A DNA stretch of 58,147 nucleotides from Candidatus Eisenbacteria bacterium. GTDB taxonomy: Bacteria; Eisenbacteria; RBG-16-71-46; SZUA-252. The number at the start of each line of letters is the position of its first letter. The first letter of the stretch is position 1. This document shows positions 39,693 through 58,147 of the stretch, in pieces. The notes under the pieces are model-generated. The model was not told the DNA's origin, made no database searches, and was given only the letters and a program-made list of their open reading frames with translations. The position numbers were made by a program, and so were the translations under genes. Location: NCBI GenBank assembly GCA_005893305.1, contig VBOZ01000030.1, positions 1 to 58,147 on the forward strand. The letters run 5' to 3'.

Positions 39693-40223
39693 TCACCATC
39701 CTTGGACGGTCCGGCTGACGATCTGGTCCGCGAGCTTCTGGATGACGTCCCTCCGGCCGTCGACCTCCGTCTTGGCGGGCTCGGAGCCCACGGGCACGAC
39801 GCTGTAGGTGGTGCGGACGGTCAACGCATCCTCCTTCCAGATCTCGCGGTTCTTCACCTGGTCGTGAAGGCTCACCTTCACGGCAAGTAGTATTTCATAC
39901 TGGGTCGCGACCTCCTGAGACGTATAAGCATAAACGCGATTCCGATAGGAGAGAACGGTGCCGCGCAGGACCGTATCGGCGTCGCGCTCGCGTTCGGAGG
40001 TAAGGCGTCGGTCGGCTTGGAAGGAGTTGATCAGGGCCTGGGTGATGTCGTCGGCGAGGCCATGCTCCACCGTGTTGTTCGCGAAGGTCGGGATCGCGAT
40101 CGTGTGGATGTATGAAGGGAGGACGCTCGAGACGGTGTAGCCGCAGCCGGGCGGGCAGGCGACGAGGACCACGAGGAGCGCGCCCAGCCAGCGGCAGCTA
40201 GCCGAGGTCGCTCGTCGTGGCAT
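39693..40223 (-). CDS. lptE: LPS-assembly lipoprotein LptE
   Basis: 176 residues with a lipoprotein signal: LVAC (Cys23) fits the lipobox better than the later Cys27. The body has the LptE pattern: CGYTVSS near the start, HTIAIPTFANNTVEHGLADD, then beta strands (VLRGTVLSYRNRVYAYTSQE, YEILLAVKVSLHDQVKN). It would plug the LptD barrel that places LPS in the outer leaflet, so the host should make LPS or a similar glycolipid. The start lies inside the end of the response-regulator gene (26-base overlap). Confidence 0.82.
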   Translation of the reverse strand: MPRRATSASCRWLGALLVVLVACPPGCGYTVSSVLPSYIHTIAIPTFANNTVEHGLADDITQALINSFQADRRLTSERERDADTVLRGTVLSYRNRVYAYTSQEVATQYEILLAVKVSLHDQVKNREIWKEDALTVRTTYSVVPVGSEPAKTEVDGRRDVIQKLADQIVSRTVQGW

Positions 40224-41628
40224 CGTTGAAACCGTAGAGCTTCATCCGGTAGCGAAGCTTGTCGCGCTTCATCTGGAGGAGCGCCGCCGTCCGGCTCTGA
40301 TTTCCCTGCGTCCAGTGAAACGCGCGCTCGATGGCCTGACGCTCGACCTCGCCCAAGGCGCTCTCGAGATCGATCCCCTCTTCTGGGAAACGCCCCGACT
40401 CAATCACCTCGCGGAGACTCTCCAGACGGGAGCCGGGTCGGGCCGTCGGCACGGCGATCGCCGCGTTCAGGTGCTGGGCGAGGATTCGATCCCCCTGGTT
40501 CAGGAGGACGATCCGCTCGAAGAGATTGCGAAGCTCGCGGATGTTCCCCGGCCACGGATAGGCGATGAGGATCCGGTCGGCTTCGGGATCGATCGATTGA
40601 AAGCTCTTGTTGAAGGCACGATTGAACTGGCTCAGAAAATGGTTCGCGAGCGGGAGGATGTCCTCGCGGCGCTCCCGAAGCGCGGGCACGCGGATCGGCA
40701 CGACCTTGAGCCGGTAGTAGAGATCTTCGCGGAAGCGCTGCTCTCGAACCATCGTGGCCAGATCCTGGTTCGTCGCCGAGATGACGCGAACGGTCACGGT
40801 GATGTCCTTCGTTCCGCCGACGCGCTTGAAGGTCATCCGCTCGAGGACGCGAAGCAGCTTCACCTGGATCGTGAGGCTCATCTCGCCCACTTCGTCGAGG
40901 AAGAGCGTGCCGCCGTTCGCGAGCTCGAGCAGGCCCTGCTTCTGCTGGCGCGCATCGGTGAACGCGCCCTTCTCGTGCCCGAAGAGCTCCGATTCGAGGA
41001 GCTCGCGGGGGATCGCGGCGCAGTTCACCTCGAGCATGGGCCGGTCCCGCCGCGCGGAGAGATCGTGGATCCAGTGCGCGATCAGCTCCTTCCCCGTGCC
41101 GCTCTCGCCCTCGATCAGAACGCTCGTCGAATCGCTGCCCGCCACCTGGTCGACGATGTCGTAGACCTTCTTCATCGCCGCGCTCTCGCCGCGGACGAAA
41201 TCCTTGGAGAACTTCTCGATCCGCTCCTTGCGGTGGTGGCGCACCTCCCGCCCGAGCTGCTGGGAGGAGAGCTCGCGCTCGAGGACGAGGAGTAGCTCGT
41301 CCCGGATGGGCTTCCCCTTGGTGAGGTAATCGCGGGCTCCCAATCGCATCGCCTGGACGGCCGTCTCGTGGTCGGGCTCTCCGGTGAGCATGACCACGAT
41401 CGAGTCGGGCCACTGCTCCCGGATTCGCTGGAGCAGCTCGATCCCGGTCATGTCGGGGAGCCGGATGTCGAGGAGGACCAGCTCCGCGGGCTCGCGCTCG
41501 AGCGCTCGAATGGCGGCCTGGCCGGTCTCGGCCGTCGTGACCTGGAACCCCTCTGCTTCCAGATCGCGCGGCAGGAAATACCGGATCGTCTCGTCGTCAT
41601 CGATCAGCAGGATGGAAGCCTTGGCCAT
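40198..41628 (-). CDS. NtrC-family sigma-54-dependent response regulator
   Basis: 476 residues. Receiver domain with ILLIDDDE, phosphoacceptor Asp54 in LVLLDIRLPD, and a conserved Thr and Lys after it; AAA+ domain with GESGTGKE (Walker A), the sigma-54 contact loop ELFGHEKGAFTDA, GTLFLDEVGE (Walker B) and the arginine-containing FREDLYYRL; C-terminal Fis-type helix-turn-helix (RTAALLQMKRDKLRYRMKLY). All residues needed for phosphorylation and sigma-54 activation are present. Cognate kinase is the gene directly upstream (12-base gap). Likely targets include the sigma-54-type promoters at 46249-46264 and 52164-52179. Confidence 0.95.
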   Translation of the reverse strand: MAKASILLIDDDETIRYFLPRDLEAEGFQVTTAETGQAAIRALEREPAELVLLDIRLPDMTGIELLQRIREQWPDSIVVMLTGEPDHETAVQAMRLGARDYLTKGKPIRDELLLVLERELSSQQLGREVRHHRKERIEKFSKDFVRGESAAMKKVYDIVDQVAGSDSTSVLIEGESGTGKELIAHWIHDLSARRDRPMLEVNCAAIPRELLESELFGHEKGAFTDARQQKQGLLELANGGTLFLDEVGEMSLTIQVKLLRVLERMTFKRVGGTKDITVTVRVISATNQDLATMVREQRFREDLYYRLKVVPIRVPALRERREDILPLANHFLSQFNRAFNKSFQSIDPEADRILIAYPWPGNIRELRNLFERIVLLNQGDRILAQHLNAAIAVPTARPGSRLESLREVIESGRFPEEGIDLESALGEVERQAIERAFHWTQGNQSRTAALLQMKRDKLRYRMKLYGFNDATTSDLG

Positions 41629-47675: not shown

Positions 47676-49139
47676 TCAGATATCCTCGTCTGGAGATGGG
47701 CGGCTCCGGAAGCCACCCGGGACCAGCCGATCTACCTGAGCCGAGTACCGGCGGCAGACCAGGTCCAGCAGCGGCAGGAGCGGCCGGCGGGCGATCCCCT
47801 CCCCTCCTGCCGGATCGCCGCAGAGAAGGAACGCATAGAGTTCCTCCTCCCGTGTGATCGGCGCGGCGGAGGTCGCCCGGCAGGCGGCGATCTGTGCGGC
47901 ATTCTCCACGTAGATGGGGATGAACTCGAGATCGTCGGTTCGTCCCCGAAGCTGGATGGACCGGCCGGTCCGCATGAGCTCCCTCGCCAGCGGGTCGGAG
48001 TCCCTCACGGACACGGCCGGAGCCGGGTCCAGGGTGCTCGCTACGACGACAAACCGAGCCTGTTGCTCGTCGGCAAGGAAGAGCGTGACCGGATCCGCCC
48101 CGACCAGCTCGCGCGCGTTTGGAGGGATCAGGTCGCAAAGCTCGGCGATCGACCGGGTCGGTTGGACCGACTCCGCCGCGCGTGCCGAGAGCGTGTAGTA
48201 CTCGCCCCGCCTGGCGAGCAGGTGGGGGTCGACCAGCCGCCTGACCCTGCGCTGCAGCCGATTTGACACCGCTAGAGCGGCGGTTCCCAAGGCGCCTCCG
48301 AGGGCGACCAGGAGCCAGAGGCCCCGCGCCACGCTCCACCCTGTGGCGCGGGTAATCGCGATCAGCGCGGTGGCGGCGACCAGGTATCCCACCGCGATCG
48401 TCAGCGACGCCGTCCTCGTAAGGGAGCGATCGGCCCGCCGCGTGCGCGCCTCCCCGATCCGACCGTGAATCAGCGATACCGGAAGGAGGAGTGAGAGGCA
48501 CGCGATCGGGATCGCGCCGAGGCTCAGGTCGGCCGCCGTCACCCGGCCCGCCAGAACGCTGCTCACCGAGGCATAGGTGAAGAATCCGGAAGCAAGGAGG
48601 ATCCCCGCGAGGCCGGGGCGAAACGCGTGGCGCTGCGCGCGTGGGAAGGTGAGGTACGTCGACTCGAAGCTCGCCGTGAGCAGGATCAGGTTGAGAAGGA
48701 TCGCGACGAGCATCCCGGTGCAGATCGGTCGAAGCGGGAAGCTGGTTCCGTTCAGATCGAATGCAAGCGTCGCGCGCGGCGGGAATGCGCCGACCGCGAC
48801 AAGACCGCAAATCGAGAGGAGTGCCTGCGCGACGATGTAGTACCGCCAGCCGCCGAGCTGGCCGGGATTCGTCCCGACGCCGAGCGTGCGGGACAGGAGC
48901 ATCCAGCAGAGGGAGACCGGGAGGGCGAGAGCGAGCGAGAGCTCGAACCACGATTCCCCGCCTGGGCCCAGGACGTCGTAGATCGCCCGTGCCCAACCGA
49001 ACTGCAAGAGCCCAAGGGAGGCCAGCGCCGCTGCGGCGATGAGGGATGGGTATCGTCCCGGGCTCATGAAGACCAGGAGTCCTCCACCGAGTATCGCGAG
49101 GATCCCACCCGATACGAGGATGAGGATGTCGAAGCTCAC
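47676..49139 (-). CDS. PrsK-like membrane sensor lacking the kinase domain
   Basis: 487 residues from GTG, overlapping the deacetylase stop. About nine or ten membrane segments fill residues 1-290 (ILILVSGGILAILGGGLLVF, ALALPVSLCWMLLSRTLG, LSICGLVAVGAFPP, GLWLLVALGGALGTAALAVS), then RLQRRVRRLVDPHLLARRGE and a GAF-like domain (LFLADEQQARFVVVASTLDP). This is the layout of the N-terminal part of PrsK, the histidine kinase of exosortase/PEP-CTERM EPS loci, but the protein ends after the GAF domain, with no HisKA or HATPase motifs. No frameshifted kinase remnant follows. It may be a receptor that signals through another protein. Confidence 0.7.
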   Translation of the reverse strand: MSFDILILVSGGILAILGGGLLVFMSPGRYPSLIAAAALASLGLLQFGWARAIYDVLGPGGESWFELSLALALPVSLCWMLLSRTLGVGTNPGQLGGWRYYIVAQALLSICGLVAVGAFPPRATLAFDLNGTSFPLRPICTGMLVAILLNLILLTASFESTYLTFPRAQRHAFRPGLAGILLASGFFTYASVSSVLAGRVTAADLSLGAIPIACLSLLLPVSLIHGRIGEARTRRADRSLTRTASLTIAVGYLVAATALIAITRATGWSVARGLWLLVALGGALGTAALAVSNRLQRRVRRLVDPHLLARRGEYYTLSARAAESVQPTRSIAELCDLIPPNARELVGADPVTLFLADEQQARFVVVASTLDPAPAVSVRDSDPLARELMRTGRSIQLRGRTDDLEFIPIYVENAAQIAACRATSAAPITREEELYAFLLCGDPAGGEGIARRPLLPLLDLVCRRYSAQVDRLVPGGFRSRPSPDEDI

Positions 49140-50014
49140 CGGGCCCCTTCCCTCTCACGCGCGGGTGCCGGGGCGAGGAGGCCGATCTCACGCAATCGTG
49201 TCGCCACGCTTCGGAACGGGGCGCACGCCAGGATGCGCCGGATGATCGCCTCGGTGCGACCAAGCCGGGCATAGTGGGTCCAGGGGCCGCGGCTTGGTCC
49301 CACCGTGGGCTGCCCCGGATCGAGTTCCCAGGGGTGGACGTTCACGACGAGCGGCAGGTGCCTCCCGAGATGGTGTCGTGCCGCCTGAACGGAGACGACG
49401 GACGGCAGGAGCCGGAGATACGCCCCGGCCAGAACGGGAATGCGAAGTGGCCCCAACCCCACGGTGGGAAGAGGAAACTCCGCGAGCGAGTGCCGGGCGC
49501 CGCGCAGGACGCCCGGCCGGGTCGGCCCGTCCGGGTAGCCATATCGTCTCCGGCGAATCGGATAGACGCTCGAATCGTACTCGTAGCCGCATTCCGCCAG
49601 GACGTCGATCGCCCAGAGCGTCGATCGGTTGACGCTATAGCTCGGGGCGCGAAAGCCGATCACGGGGACTCCGGAGACATCCTCGAGGGCCGCCCTCGAG
49701 TCACGCGCGTCCATGCGGAAGGTCTCCGGAGTGAGCTCGGTGAGCATCTGGTGGAACATGCCGTGGGAAGCGACCTCGTGGCCCCGGGATGCGATCTCCT
49801 TCACGAGCGCGGGATGTCTACGGGCCACCCACCCCAGGGTGAAGAACGTGGCCTGGGAACCGGCCCGATCGAGAAGCTCGAGGATCCGGCGGGTGTTCTG
49901 CTCCACGCGCGACGGCCAGCTCTCCCAGGTCTCCCTCGGCACGATGTGCGCGAAGGCCTGCACCTGGAAATAGTCCTCTACGTCGACGCTGAATGCGAAC
50001 GGAGCTTCGGGCAC
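49136..50014 (-). CDS. XrtA-type polysaccharide deacetylase (DUF3473)
   Basis: 292 residues from GTG. NodB-type motifs: FSVDVEDYFQVQAFA with the catalytic/metal Asp pair, the metal-binding ASHGMFHQ, FRAPSYSVNRSTLWAID, YDSSVYPIRRRRYG and VNVHPWELDPGQP in the C-terminal DUF3473-like part. These are hallmarks of deacetylases found in exosortase-linked EPS clusters. Cytosolic by sequence (no signal peptide). A possible TTCCAC-N17-TATGCT promoter ends nine bases before the start. Its stop is coupled to the PrsK-like gene. Confidence 0.88.
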   Translation of the reverse strand: MPEAPFAFSVDVEDYFQVQAFAHIVPRETWESWPSRVEQNTRRILELLDRAGSQATFFTLGWVARRHPALVKEIASRGHEVASHGMFHQMLTELTPETFRMDARDSRAALEDVSGVPVIGFRAPSYSVNRSTLWAIDVLAECGYEYDSSVYPIRRRRYGYPDGPTRPGVLRGARHSLAEFPLPTVGLGPLRIPVLAGAYLRLLPSVVSVQAARHHLGRHLPLVVNVHPWELDPGQPTVGPSRGPWTHYARLGRTEAIIRRILACAPFRSVATRLREIGLLAPAPAREREGAR

Positions 50015-50089: not shown

Positions 50090-51076
50090 TTACGGCACGA
50101 TCGCGAGTCGCGTGACCTTACGTCCGAGCGGAGTGTCGAGGATCGCGTTGTAGAGACCGGGAGCCACCTTGTTGCCGTGGTCGGACTGGCAGAGCCAGTC
50201 CACCGCTGTTTCCCCCGCGGGCATGTCTTCGTTGATCAGCTCGCTGATCAGGTGTCCGGTCAGGTCGTAGATCACGAGGCGAACTCGGCCCGAAGCGCCG
50301 CTGGCCGTGCCGGCCATGAAGCGGAGCGTCACTTTCCCGCTCGCCGGGTTGGGGTACCCGAGCAATTCCCCTGGGGCCGCGACAACGCCGTCCGCGGGTA
50401 CCGAGACGTTGTACTCCGTCGGGGCGCTGTCATTGGCGCCGGCGTAGCTCGTCAGGCTGTATTTGTAGGCCTGACCGCTCAGGGCCGTGGTGTCGATCCA
50501 GGCTGTCTCCGTGATCGTCGCGGTGTGGATCAGGGTACCAATCGTGACGCCGGCCGCTCCGCGATATACGTGATAGCCGGTTGCGCCCCCGGTCGTCACC
50601 GCGTTCCACGTGAGGCGGACCCCTCCGGTCACCGGAACCCCGGCAAAATTCGCGGGCGTCGGGAGGCCTCCCCCGCCGGTGCCCGTCGACCTTGCCGCCA
50701 CGTTCGAGTAGCCCGACCAGTTGGGCACTTCGTCGGCGGTGCGAATGACGAAGTAGTACGTCTTCCCCGAGTCGAGGCCGGCTACCGTGAACGATTCCTG
50801 GCTCCCGGCGATTCTGGGAGTCGGAAGCGTTCCTGCCGACGTCGCGGCGGACCACCAGGTGGCTGTGTCCGCGGAGGCGACCGTGGACTCCGAGTATCGC
50901 AGCTCGTAGTTGGCGGCCCGTCCGACGTTGCCGTCGTCGCCGGGCGCGGTCCAGCGGAGCGCGATCGAAGCCGCGTTCAATGCCCGCGGGGCAAGGAGCG
51001 CGATCGCGAGTGCGATCGCGGCTCCAAGCGTCCGCGGAACGAGGTTCAGGTGTCGATACCGCTTCTTACCGTGCAT
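50090..51076 (-). CDS. Secreted fibronectin-III protein with FlgD-like C-terminal domain
   Basis: 328 residues; signal peptide (LGAAIALAIALLAPRALNAA). First FnIII domain has the family-specific frame ALRWTAPGDDGNVGRAANYE ... TYYFVIRTADEVPNWSGYSN; a second FnIII follows (VRLTWNAVTTGGATGYHVYR). The C-terminal ~90 residues (GYPNPASGKVTLRF ... LVIYDLTGHLISELI ... APGLYNAILDTPLG) are the FlgD-like/Por-secretion-type domain. Likely a surface or extracellular matrix protein. It overlaps the previous gene by 11 bases and shares its riboswitch-controlled transcript. Confidence 0.85.
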   Translation of the reverse strand: MHGKKRYRHLNLVPRTLGAAIALAIALLAPRALNAASIALRWTAPGDDGNVGRAANYELRYSESTVASADTATWWSAATSAGTLPTPRIAGSQESFTVAGLDSGKTYYFVIRTADEVPNWSGYSNVAARSTGTGGGGLPTPANFAGVPVTGGVRLTWNAVTTGGATGYHVYRGAAGVTIGTLIHTATITETAWIDTTALSGQAYKYSLTSYAGANDSAPTEYNVSVPADGVVAAPGELLGYPNPASGKVTLRFMAGTASGASGRVRLVIYDLTGHLISELINEDMPAGETAVDWLCQSDHGNKVAPGLYNAILDTPLGRKVTRLAIVP

Positions 51077-51956
51077 CGCGGTTGCTCATCCCCTCGAAGT
51101 CGGCCGAAGCGATCTGCTCGGTGGTCCAGGAGCCCAGATCCCCGTACGAGAGATCCCGAACCGGAGCGGGCGGGACCGTGTCGAGCGTCGAGCCGTTCAC
51201 CACGTTGGAGAGACTCGATACGTTGCTTCGCTCGTCGGACGCCCGCATGGCCACGTAGTAGGTCTGGCTCGGCTGAAGGCCGGTGACCGTGTAGGTCTGG
51301 ACCGTGCCCGCGACCAGCGGGGTCGGCTCACCGGTTACCGTCGTCGCGGAAGTCCAGTTGGTCGAGGTGATGGGTGAGGTGGAGTAGCGAATGTCGTAGG
51401 ACGTGGCGGTACCCGTGTTGTTGTCGTCACCGGGCGACGTCCAGCGAACCGCGAGGCTGTTTCCGGTGGAGCCGGTGACCGACAGGTCAGCGATCGCGGC
51501 CGGGGCGGTCGCGTCGCCCGACGTGGTCACGACGGCCACGTTCGAGAATCCCGACCAGTTCGGCACTTCGTCCGCGGTCCGGACCACGAAGTAGTACGTC
51601 GTCAGCGGAGTGAGCCCGCGGACGCGCACCGAGTCCGTGGAGCCGGAGACGCCGGGTACCGGAAGGCCGGTAGCCTGCGTCGCCGCGTTCCACCATCCAA
51701 GCGTGTCCGTGCCCGTGATCGCGGCGTTCCGGTAGCGAAGCGCGTAGCTCGTCGCGCGTCCGACCGTTCCGTCGTCTCCCGGCGCGGTCCAGCGAAGCAC
51801 GGCGGTCGAATCGGCCGCGGTCTGAGCGCGCGCTTCCGTCGGCGCGATCAAACACAGCAGGACCAACCCGGCCATGTACGCTGCAATGAGGTACCAGAGT
51901 GATGTGCTCCCGGCGTGGCCGGGGGTGGTGAAGCTTGCGGAGCGGTGCTGGCGCAT
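51066..51956 (-). CDS. Secreted double fibronectin-III protein under riboswitch control
   Basis: 296 residues from ATG 51956, with GGAGG five bases ahead. Signal peptide includes YLIAAYMAGLVLLCLIAPTE and ends near ARAQ. Two FnIII domains: VLRWTAPGDDGTVGRATSYA ... YYFVVRTADEVPNWSGFSNV, and AVRWTSPGDDNNTGTATSYD ... YYVAMRASDERSNVSSLSNV. No FlgD-like end, in contrast to its neighbour. The DNA of the first domain is clearly similar to that of the next gene, suggesting duplication. Its leader carries a GEMM-type riboswitch and its promoter is sigma-54-type, so expression should follow cyclic-dinucleotide level. Confidence 0.85.
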   Translation of the reverse strand: MRQHRSASFTTPGHAGSTSLWYLIAAYMAGLVLLCLIAPTEARAQTAADSTAVLRWTAPGDDGTVGRATSYALRYRNAAITGTDTLGWWNAATQATGLPVPGVSGSTDSVRVRGLTPLTTYYFVVRTADEVPNWSGFSNVAVVTTSGDATAPAAIADLSVTGSTGNSLAVRWTSPGDDNNTGTATSYDIRYSTSPITSTNWTSATTVTGEPTPLVAGTVQTYTVTGLQPSQTYYVAMRASDERSNVSSLSNVVNGSTLDTVPPAPVRDLSYGDLGSWTTEQIASADFEGMSNRDAR

Positions 51957-51961
51957 GTTGT

Positions 51962-52034
51962 CCTCCCCATCCGGAGGGGCGTCCGGCTCCCGTAGCCAGG
52001 CCGCCACTGACCCCTGTGATCCATGGCGGTCCGG
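51962..52034 (-). promoter_or_regulatory. Riboswitch expression platform with hidden ribosome-binding site
   Basis: Two structures on the - strand. An alternative stem pairs CCGG-A-CCGCCA (52034-52024) with TGGCGG-C-CTGG (52006-51996); it uses bases that also form the 3' side of aptamer stem P1 (52025-52019), so the two exclude each other. Closer to the gene, CCTCC (51977-51973) can pair with the Shine-Dalgarno GGAGG (51966-51962). This is the layout of a translation-regulating riboswitch. Confidence 0.65.
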
Positions 52035-52133
52035 CCGGCGTGGGTCGTTTCCGGGCTTGTTCCCGAAGCCCGCGACCGTTAGCCCCGTGACTCTGCGCCC
52101 TGCCCTTTCAGACAGTTTGCTCTGAACATGGAT
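52019..52133 (-). ncRNA. GEMM-I (cyclic-di-GMP-I type) riboswitch aptamer, A20 variant
   Basis: Read on the - strand, the core (52124-52079) aligns without gaps over 46 positions to the V. cholerae Vc2 aptamer: CAGAGCAAAC, then UGUCU-GAAA-GGGCAG (a stem differing from Vc2 at several positions yet fully paired, i.e. covariation), GGGCGCAGAGUC, CACGGGGCUAA. P1 is ATCCATG (52133-52127) with CATGGAT (52025-52019). P2 is GGUCG ... CGACC capped by CGGGCUU / AAGCCCG. The A equivalent to A47 is kept. The base equivalent to G20 is A (52121), and A43 is G, as I recall for GEMM-Ib RNAs that prefer 3',3'-cGAMP. Confidence 0.82.
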
Positions 52134-52163
52134 TGCGGTAAGCCCTTCCCCGATTCGCTGTCG

Positions 52164-55800: not shown

Positions 55801-56514
55801 TTAGGGCAGGAGGAGGAGCCGCTCACGCACCCGGGAAGACCCGACCGTTCCGAGGACTTCGTAATAGCCCGGGGCGACCGGGTTCCCGGAGGTTGCGAGC
55901 CGATCCCAAGTGATCGACGTGATGCCCGATGGGTAGGTCGTGTCGGCAACGTCGGCGATGACATGTCCGTTCAGATCGTAGACGCGAATTCGGACTAGCC
56001 GCGGCTCCGTGCCGCCGACGCGGAGCTCGAATCGTATCGGGCCGGATGGCGCAGGGTTTGGAAAGGCACGGAGATCCGATGCTTCTTCGGTGCCCGGCGC
56101 CAGAGGTGAACCAGGAGGCGGAGGAGTTCCCGTCGTCTGCGCCGAGCCGACATTCGAGTAGCTGGACCAATTGAGAGCTTCGTCCGCGACCCGAAGCACG
56201 AAGTAGTAGGTTGTTCCGGGAGAGAGGCCCGTCACGAGCACGGAATCGAGGGCGCCGGGCATCGAGGGCTGGGGTACACCAATCACGTGAGTCGCCTGGT
56301 TCCACCACGCCGCGATCGAGCTGCCGACGGGACTTGTCGAGTACCGGAGATCATACTGCCACGCCTGTCCGTTCGATCCGTCGTCTCCGGTCGCGGTCCA
56401 GGAGACCAAAAGCGTGGCGTCCGACTGAGCCGCGGCTGGAATCGCGCAGCACAGAGCTACGATCGCCAAGCTCAGAGCGGCAAGCGTGCGCCGCGCGCGT
56501 CGTGTCGACGTCAT
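55801..56514 (-). CDS. Secreted fibronectin-III protein with FlgD-like C-terminal domain
   Basis: 237 residues from ATG 56514. Signal peptide (LAALSLAIVALCCAIPAAAQ). One FnIII domain of the same lineage as the two at 50090-51956 (LLVSWTATGDDGSNGQAWQY ... YYFVLRVADEALNWSSYSNV), a Pro-rich linker, then the FlgD-like end (AFPNPAPSGPIRFEL ... IRVYDLNGHVIADV ... APGYYEVLGTVG). No GEMM-type leader or sigma-54 promoter was found ahead of it. Confidence 0.85.
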   Translation of the reverse strand: MTSTRRARRTLAALSLAIVALCCAIPAAAQSDATLLVSWTATGDDGSNGQAWQYDLRYSTSPVGSSIAAWWNQATHVIGVPQPSMPGALDSVLVTGLSPGTTYYFVLRVADEALNWSSYSNVGSAQTTGTPPPPGSPLAPGTEEASDLRAFPNPAPSGPIRFELRVGGTEPRLVRIRVYDLNGHVIADVADTTYPSGITSITWDRLATSGNPVAPGYYEVLGTVGSSRVRERLLLLP

Positions 56515-56590
56515 GAAGGAGTCCCCCAAGTGGAACAACTCCACATCAAGATCGGCACCGGTGAAGCGCCTTGCAACTTTTTCCGGCTTC

Positions 56591-58147
56591 TCAGCGGAGG
56601 ATGGTGAGACGGGTGGTTGTAATCGTCCGGCCGTCGAGTTGTGCCCGCACGAAGTACGTCCCCGAGGCAGCCCGCTGTCCCGAGACGGTCCGGCCGTCCC
56701 AATGGAGCGCACGCACGCCACGCGGCGCCCGCTCGTCCACAATTACCGCGACGACCCGTCCATGGAAGTCATAGACGATCGCTGAAACGTGTCCCTCCCG
56801 CGCGACCGTGAAGGCAAATTCGGCGCGGTCGTGAATTGGGTTGGCGCTCCGGAGCCTGAATCCGGTGACAAGCTCCCCGCCGGTGTCCCCCACGCCCGTA
56901 ACGGGCGCCTGTGAGACGTTCACCACCACGTCACCCGATACCGTCGCTCCCATCGGGTCGGTGACAAGTACCGAGACGGTGAACGGCGTGGGCGCGGTCA
57001 CATCCGGCGGCTTGAACGACACGGTGGCACCTCCGCCCGTGAGCGTTCCTGCGCTCGCGGTCCACGCGTAGAAGAGCACCGACTCGGCATCAGCGTCTGT
57101 GGCATCTACGGTAATCATACAGCTCTGCATCGAGTTGATCGAGTTGGGGTTGGCTATCGGTCCCGACGCAAGCTGCGGAGCCGTGTTGTGCTCCCGCCTC
57201 ACATTGACCATGACGTGGCCGGTCGTTGTGCCACCATGTCCGTCGCCCACCGCGAGGGAGATCGTGACGTCGGTCGGCGTATCCACCGCGGCGGGGGTAA
57301 AGGTGATGCTCGATCCGCTCCCGGAGAATGTTCCCCGGCTGGCCGTCCAGCTATAGGTCAGTGCGTCACCATCCGCATCGGTCGCGCCAGCCGTGATCGC
57401 GCTCGTTTGCAAATCGGTGATGGAGTCCGGACTCGCTGCGGGCGCGGTCATGATTTGGGGTGGCGCGTTGTGTTGGCGCGAGACCTTGACCGAGGTGTTG
57501 CCGGTGGTGGTTCCGCCATGGCCGTCGGTCACGGCGATCGAGAATGTAAAGGTCGTCACCGTGGGCACCCGTGGCGGTGTGAAGGTGACGCTCGCGCCGC
57601 TCCCAGTGATGCTGCCGCCGCTTGGCGTCCAGGAGTATGTGAGGGCGTCCCCTTCCGGGTCCGTAGCGGTCACGCTAAGGGTGCTAGTTTGCATGTCGGT
57701 GATGGAGTCTGGGCTCGCCGCGGGGCCCGAAGTGAACTGAGGTTCGGTGTTATGTCGCGTGACCTTGACCGAGGTGTTGCCCGTCGCCGTCCCGCCGTGC
57801 GCATCGTCGACGGTGAGCGCAATCGTAAACGTCGTGGTCGAGAGCACGGCCGGCGGCGTGAAGGTGACACTGGCGCCGGCCCCGGTGATGCTGCCGCCGC
57901 TGGGCGTCCAGCCATAGGTCAGCGGGTCCCCTTCCGCGTCCGTCGCCGTCACGCTGAGGGTGCTCGTCTGAATGTCGGTGATGGAGTCGGGGCTCGCGGT
58001 CGGACCGGCCGTAATTTGCGGCGCCGTGTTGTGGCGCGAGACCTTGACCGAGGTGTTCCCCGTCGCCGTTCCGCCGTGGCCGTCATCGACGGTGAGCGCG
58101 ATCGTGAACGTCGTGGTCGAGAGCACCGCCGGCGGCGTGAACGTGAC
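56591..58147 (-). CDS. Large secreted Ig/PKD-repeat protein, 5'-truncated by window edge
   Basis: The frame is open to the end of the window, so the N-terminus is missing; at least ~518 residues are seen. It holds four full copies and one partial copy of a ~93-residue Ig/cadherin/PKD-like unit with the recurrent motifs PQ-x-GP-ASPDSITD, GDALTYSWTPSGG, VTFTPP and DGHGGTATGNTSVKV. The C-terminal ~90 residues (GFRLRSANPIHDRAEFAF ... IVYDFHGRVVAVIV ... ASGTYFVRAQLDG) are a FlgD-like/Por-secretion-type domain. Likely a surface adhesin or matrix protein. Confidence 0.88.
   Translation of the reverse strand, partial: VTFTPPAVLSTTTFTIALTVDDGHGGTATGNTSVKVSRHNTAPQITAGPTASPDSITDIQTSTLSVTATDAEGDPLTYGWTPSGGSITGAGASVTFTPPAVLSTTTFTIALTVDDAHGGTATGNTSVKVTRHNTEPQFTSGPAASPDSITDMQTSTLSVTATDPEGDALTYSWTPSGGSITGSGASVTFTPPRVPTVTTFTFSIAVTDGHGGTTTGNTSVKVSRQHNAPPQIMTAPAASPDSITDLQTSAITAGATDADGDALTYSWTASRGTFSGSGSSITFTPAAVDTPTDVTISLAVGDGHGGTTTGHVMVNVRREHNTAPQLASGPIANPNSINSMQSCMITVDATDADAESVLFYAWTASAGTLTGGGATVSFKPPDVTAPTPFTVSVLVTDPMGATVSGDVVVNVSQAPVTGVGDTGGELVTGFRLRSANPIHDRAEFAFTVAREGHVSAIVYDFHGRVVAVIVDERAPRGVRALHWDGRTVSGQRAASGTYFVRAQLDGRTITTTRLTILR
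56910..58147. repeat. Tandem 279-base coding repeats
   Basis: A 279-base period (93 codons) is directly visible: the string GAGGTGTT recurs at 57492, 57771 and 58050. The two copies nearest the window edge are the most alike at DNA level; copies toward the gene's 3' end are more diverged. In-frame period and sequence-level similarity suggest recent unequal crossing-over. Extent beyond the window is unknown. Confidence 0.85.

Follow-up and report, generated by a model that had tools for sequence, protein, structure and literature searches.

The closest described relatives of the RNA considered here are the c-di-GMP-I aptamers (Rfam RF01051), such as Vc2, and the GEMM-Ib RNAs of Geobacter, which respond to 3',3'-cGAMP and are represented by the pilM and Gs1761/pgcA switches. 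In the Geobacter structure, A41, the counterpart of A47 in Vc2, stacks between the two bases of the ligand, and C75 is the counterpart of C92 (PMC6274999). C15-G40 is the pair that adjoins the pocket there, and the A at the Vc2 A48 place is kept as A42 (PMC6274999, PMC7288161). The pilM RNA is an ON switch in which a terminator competes with the aptamer (PMC9262584). Also surface proteins with fibronectin type III (FnIII) domains are found behind such RNAs: in Geobacter sulfurreducens, a GEMM switch precedes the FnIII surface protein KN400_1971 (PMC13194489), and the FnIII protein GSU1945 is listed among the GEMM-I genes (PMC10599522). In Geobacter, cGAMP is made by GacA, a GGDEF enzyme of the Hypr type, and cGAMP-making enzymes are marked by Ser348 in the place of Asp, by GGDE[F/Y] as motif, and by the absence of Arg from position 304, where GacA has Tyr (PMC6456294). 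The cGAMP-making enzymes have a wider distribution than the riboswitches for cGAMP, which are known mainly from Geobacter, and the question has been raised whether there are others (PMC8835794).

The locus described in the following lies on the minus strand of a Candidatus Eisenbacteria contig, and the whole stretch of 58,147 nucleotides is called the window. The reading that we infer, with a slightly better than even chance of being correct, is that a GEMM-I switch with A20 and G48 in its pocket controls an FnIII operon, that it acts as an ON switch via a competing hairpin, and that its most likely ligand is 3',3'-cGAMP from a Hypr-type GAF-GGDEF enzyme.

The aptamer and its pocket bases

When the window was scanned against all Rfam families, RF01051 was the sole family that reached its threshold, and the match at 52131-52022 (minus strand) covers model positions 1-87 with 52.2 bits, the gathering score being 35; the E value of 2.3e-7 applies to the complete window and every family. 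The c-di-GMP-I-GGC family (RF03167) belongs to the same clan, but no match of the window copy to it is reported; the Eisenbacteria relatives L011 and L013 score best with that family. Elsewhere in the genome, whose 39 contigs sum to 2.75 Mb at a completeness of about 96%, there is no second RF01051 match, and a subtype model for A20/G48 RNAs, R1, found nothing in the 2.75 Mb besides the window RNA. The features of the aptamer, numbered after Vc2 where bases are concerned, are as follows.

52022..52131, minus strand: GEMM-I (c-di-GMP-I/cGAMP type) aptamer core; RF01051 52.2 bits, subclass model R1 80.2 bits at 52018-52136
52127..52133, minus strand: 5' strand of the P1 helix, AUCCAUG, pairing with 52019-52025
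52019..52025, minus strand: 3' strand of the P1 helix, CAUGGAU, which doubles as part of the competing hairpin
52121, minus strand: A at the ligand-contacting G20 position (RF01051 model position 11)
52098, minus strand: G at the A43 position (model position 34), variable in relatives
52094, minus strand: equivalent of the conserved A47 (RF01051 alignment), invariant in orthologues
52093, minus strand: G at the A48 position (model position 39), covarying with A20
52026, minus strand: equivalent of C92, the predicted Watson-Crick partner of the ligand guanine; it precedes the P1 3' strand and is invariant in orthologues

A preliminary description, made from the letters of the window, had claimed a GEMM-class RNA with a gap-free core, a GAAA tetraloop, a covarying P1b stem, a separate P1 of 7 bp, the conserved A47, and A and G in place of G20 and A43, and had named a significant RF01051 hit as the check. 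All of this was borne out. The covariance model matches over its full length, the core aligns to RF01051 without gaps, and the bases at 52121, 52098 and 52094 are as had been described. The seven pairs of P1 are formed by 52133-52127 with 52025-52019; six of them could be counted in the orthologues, where they are 100% paired and include an AU/UA double change. P1b is present with its GAAA loop, and five of its six pairs change on both sides among the orthologues. Over eight orthologues, the whole structure is 97.8% paired, with eight pairs that have changes on both sides, and in a control in which the partner strand was slid along, pairing dropped to only 26-46%. The score above threshold over the full length, the covarying P1, P1b with GNRA loop and P3, and the presence of A47 and C92 identify the leader, as far as sequence can tell, as a real GEMM-I riboswitch of the A20/G48 subtype, for which binding of a cyclic dinucleotide is predicted.

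The window RNA keeps the G21-C46 pair adjoining the pocket, A47 and C92 of Vc2, and it differs from Vc2 by G20 to A, A43 to G and A48 to G as well as by a longer P3 hairpin. The third pocket change, at 52093, was absent from the preliminary description. It is common to every FnIII-linked orthologue, always together with A20, across two families. With the Geobacter GEMM-Ib RNAs the window RNA has the fold, A20, A47 and the ligand-pairing C in common, but instead of their C-G pair and A48 it has G-C and G48. It lies outside the described cGAMP lineages, and its ligand is predicted. The covariation of A20 and G48 also points to a change in the pocket by which cyclic-dinucleotide specificity can be tested.

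Downstream genes and the expression platform

The genes behind the aptamer are all on the same strand as the RNA.

51066..51956, minus strand: secreted FnIII protein A of 296 aa, whose gene comes first in the operon under control; its start codon, with a Shine-Dalgarno sequence, is 65 nt past the aptamer
50090..51076, minus strand: secreted FnIII protein B, 328 aa, with a FlgD-Ig-like C-terminus, overlapping gene A by 11 nt
49136..50014, minus strand: polysaccharide deacetylase of the XrtA system (EPS context); TIGR03006 294.2 bits, cut-off 276.2 (equivalog)

Protein A matches fn3 in two stretches (E 1.5e-18), and genes for a glycosyltransferase, a sugar transferase and a GNAT protein are close to the XrtA-type deacetylase. 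The FnIII operon in an EPS context, as it had been claimed, therefore stands with two FnIII genes beside the deacetylase. The novelty that had been attached to it holds for this lineage, but the combination of GEMM and FnIII as such has the Geobacter precedent (PMC13194489, PMC10599522). A literature search found no paper that combines riboswitches and Eisenbacteria. Two more surface-type proteins are encoded on this strand in the region upstream of the riboswitch (55801-56742 and 56591-58147, minus), one with fn3 and FlgD-Ig and one with Big_9/PKD repeats and FlgD-Ig; there is no separate RF01051 match for these two genes.

Twelve aptamers were found in nine genomes of the class, five of these genomes, including the present one, belonging to family f1, three to f6 with two aptamers each, and one to f8. 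All have A20 except the f8 aptamer, which has G20 (11 of 12). At all five f1 loci and at three f6 loci an A20/G48 aptamer is placed 59-76 nt before an FnIII gene, in most cases followed by a second FnIII gene, and the subtype model gives 71.5-85.6 bits for the other FnIII-linked Eisenbacteria RNAs. The second A20 aptamers of f6 (L013, L017, L018) have lower scores with that model (43-53 bits) and carry a separate downstream hairpin, AACCCG...CGGGTTT; two of the three (L013, L018) are several hundred bases before a frame that resembles MFS-type transporters.

Two hairpins follow from folding of the window leader.

51994..52036, minus strand: competing hairpin, core of the expression platform, which takes up the aptamer 3' strand and P1 (ViennaRNA, about -39 kcal/mol for 3' strand plus platform)
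51962..51977, minus strand: hairpin CCUCC...GGAGG, which covers the Shine-Dalgarno sequence and is paired in either of the modelled states

In seven of eight Eisenbacteria leaders (all but G002), folding allows the aptamer 3' strand to form a long downstream hairpin that excludes P1, and in G007, G003 and G013 this hairpin ends in a U run and thus is an intrinsic terminator. By a simple rule, an overlapping terminator is present in 29 of 44 testable A20/G48 leaders, G007 among them. Since these terminators overlap the aptamers, a P1 that is stabilised by the ligand would turn transcription on, as has been found for pilM (PMC9262584), and also the switch of the window is probably an ON switch according to the modelled folds. 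In such a mechanism, the aptamer 3' strand (the P3/P1 side including the C92 equivalent) would be caught by the downstream strand in the long hairpin as long as there is no ligand, and the hairpin, which is an intrinsic terminator in several orthologues, would keep the operon off. Ligand binding would close P1 and release the downstream strand, and the two genes for secreted FnIII proteins would be on.

In the window copy there is no U tract after the hairpin, and neither a canonical terminator nor a sigma-70 promoter was found in its leader. Its read-out may be by weak termination or by translation, but as both modelled states have the Shine-Dalgarno sequence predicted as paired, a clear translational switch does not emerge from the folding. 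The lacking U tract and the Shine-Dalgarno sequence that is predicted to be paired in either state would fit also a decayed GEMM-I RNA whose regulation has been lost, which is very improbable in view of the intact core positions, P1, tetraloop and ligand C, the covariation of the structure across orthologues, and a competing hairpin that is kept at about -39 kcal/mol.

The A20/G48 subtype in other phyla

A scan of species genomes for A20 cores resulted in at least 124 matches, and among the matches listed, 48 have G48 and 76 have A48. The listed loci separate cleanly by lineage: the G48 loci come from Nitrospirota, Gemmatimonadota, Eisenbacteria, one Zixibacteria genome and one MAG labelled Planctomycetota, the listed A48 loci mainly from Firmicutes, Chloroflexi and Proteobacteria. 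In a separate RF01051 sample of 385 genomes, G48 is found in 14 of 18 A20 aptamers and in 0 of 90 G20 aptamers (Fisher p 2e-14, a value that ignores relatedness and is based on few sampled A20 lineages). The subtype model R1 is based on 22 A20/G48 RNAs that come from other phyla and have a strongly covarying structure, and the window RNA scores higher with it than with RF01051 (80.2 versus 52.2 bits). Nearly all other GEMM-I RNAs tested stay below 70 bits, the exception being a Paenibacillus A20/A48 RNA with 77.

The proteins encoded downstream of A20/G48 RNAs contain fn3 in 17 of 36 cases and Big_2 in 5 of 36, whereas the same procedure gave fn3 for only 2 of 37 A20/A48 RNAs; for 31 genes behind G20 RNAs, fn3 is absent from the best 25 of 35 families, and one match was allowed in the test. 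The enrichment of fn3 relative to A20/A48 persists when Eisenbacteria are left out (Fisher p 8e-4), with downstream genes that were picked automatically, several of them paralogues within one genome, and counts that ignore relatedness. Both domains occur in Gemmatimonadota (fn3 at L078, L106 and L108, Big_2 at L049, L053 and L142), and Big_2 is found in Zixibacteria.

Tentatively, and with somewhat less than an even chance, A20/G48 RNAs can be regarded as a widespread GEMM-I subclass in its own right, with a distinct pocket chemistry in which the changes at positions 20 and 48 go together. Its ligand would be 3',3'-cGAMP or a nucleotide similar to it, and in Eisenbacteria, Nitrospirota, Gemmatimonadota and Zixibacteria it would turn on surface proteins of the FnIII/Ig-fold kind. 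If this is true, RNA-based cGAMP signalling reaches far beyond Geobacter. No published description of the subtype was found in a search that did not reach the primary cGAMP-riboswitch papers of 2015 and the Hypr paper of 2016, where one may exist.

Several A20/G48 switches per genome were seen in Candidatus Manganitrophus GAC4 (L098, L137, L147) and in Manganitrophaceae GW715 (L070, L081, L082), some of them in tandem and mostly before FnIII proteins. L070 precedes a gene that resembles multihaem cytochromes, and cytochrome c7/c3 matches occur in the scanned set. At L149 (Nitrospirae JACPZO010000021.1), the switch is upstream of a PilM-family gene (PilM_2), a target as in the case of the Geobacter pilM switch.

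Candidate synthases and the ligand

The genome of the window has five GGDEF matches. The best-formed enzyme is L002, a GAF-GGDEF protein on G000:C25 around 40119-40589 with the motifs LTQVYNY, NDQNGHLRGS and GGDEF, which has Tyr at the position of Geobacter Y304, Ser at that of S348 and the GGDEF motif, and thereby all three Hypr marks. Its best PDB match is 6d9m (GmGacA, the Hypr GGDEF of Geobacter metallireducens; E 5e-36), with which it has both signature residues in common and from which it differs by an additional N-terminal GAF domain, known here from sequence. L002 is thus a candidate 3',3'-cGAMP synthase of the Hypr type, as would be expected beside a GEMM-Ib switch. The preliminary description had proposed a search for synthases of the Hypr or the DncV type, and only the former was found: there is no SMODS (DncV-type) match in the genome, and this source of cGAMP was rejected. 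The other GGDEF proteins are L003 (Asn, GGEEF), the degenerate L004 and L006, and L005, which has the Asp but GGDDF, so that none of the five combines Asp with an intact GG[DE]EF. A Ser-type enzyme is present in six of eight other family members, missing solely from the two least complete ones, and in most genomes of the class.

That 3',3'-cGAMP is the main ligand has about even chances. The preliminary description had derived a cGAMP preference from A20, and the Hypr enzyme in the genome agrees with it, but in the pocket G21-C46 is retained and G48 is an additional change, and there are A20 RNAs also in genomes that have no Ser-type Hypr enzyme. As an A20 base is combined with the G-C pair of Vc2, the RNA resembles the G20A variant of Vc2, a c-di-GMP aptamer that accepts cGAMP (PMC7288161, PMC6274999), with G48 in addition, and it may tolerate c-di-GMP, too. 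A switch of relaxed specificity would respond to cGAMP and c-di-GMP alike and read the total output of a promiscuous enzyme, and Hypr enzymes indeed produce both nucleotides (PMC6456294). This has a rather low probability: G48 is absent from Vc2 G20A and from Geobacter, and the extra change could add selectivity.

Outside the class, a Hypr DNA motif is found in 17 of 31 A20/G48 genomes (14 of 15 Nitrospirota, 3 of 14 Gemmatimonadota) and in 2 of 19 A20/A48 genomes (p 0.002), in counts that ignore relatedness and with a Nitrospirota sample that consists of riboswitch carriers only, so that the Hypr link may partly reflect the phylum. In a small broad RF01051 sample outside the class, a link of A20 with Hypr enzymes is not significant, whether the mis-registered L251 is included or left out (1/4 vs 5/51 without it). 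Reading of the domains showed no Ser-type GGDEF in 11 of 14 A20/G48 Gemmatimonadota genomes, in the Zixibacteria genome and in one of 15 Nitrospirota genomes. Of the 70 GGDEF domains that were read in 13 motif-negative A20/G48 genomes, with weak matches left out, two have Asn and all others Asp, and it was thus rejected that Hypr enzymes of Gemmatimonadota had simply escaped the strict DNA motif. Also rejected was A20 as a sufficient mark of cGAMP, as there are genomes that have A20 RNAs and lack Hypr enzymes, most of all those with A20/A48 RNAs (2/19 with the Hypr motif). Genome G037 combines a Hypr enzyme with a G20 aptamer.

It is unlikely, though less so than relaxed specificity, that the same riboswitch has c-di-GMP as its natural ligand, with A20/G48 as a tolerated alternative pocket and a Hypr-like enzyme that either belongs to a different circuit or produces c-di-GMP, too. 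For most GEMM-I RNAs the ligand is c-di-GMP (PMC7266159), the base at position 20 is described as a selectivity factor and not a hard filter (PMC9262584), G21-C46 is kept as in Vc2, and some genomes with A20/G48 aptamers have, as far as they were read, GGDEF domains of the Asp type. In the Eisenbacteria genome G019 (a single contig with an estimated completeness of 90%) there are two A20 aptamers, including an FnIII-linked one, yet no Ser-type GGDEF. With c-di-GMP as ligand it would be less easily understood that no GGDEF protein of the window's genome joins Asp to GG[DE]EF, and that A20/G48 is conserved as a set and enriched together with Hypr enzymes in Nitrospirota. The co-occurrence of the RNA subtype, conserved surface-protein targets and candidate synthases in this uncultured phylum and elsewhere yields a short list of RNAs and enzymes for direct testing.

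In L003 (G000:C17:53080-53487), Asn replaces the base-reading Asp (GYEAGN or GYEGGN) and GGEEF is intact, and all f1 genomes that were examined as well as the three f6 genomes, among them G019, have a protein of this type. This Asn could in principle read adenine, and in members of the subtype that have no Ser-type synthase the nucleotide might come from such a GGDEF variant with Asn. GGDEF domains with Asn at this position and Tyr at the Y304 position are present also in L394 (G395, Gemmatimonadota) and L358 (G396, Zixibacteria), and both of these genomes have A20/G48 riboswitches and no Ser-type enzyme.
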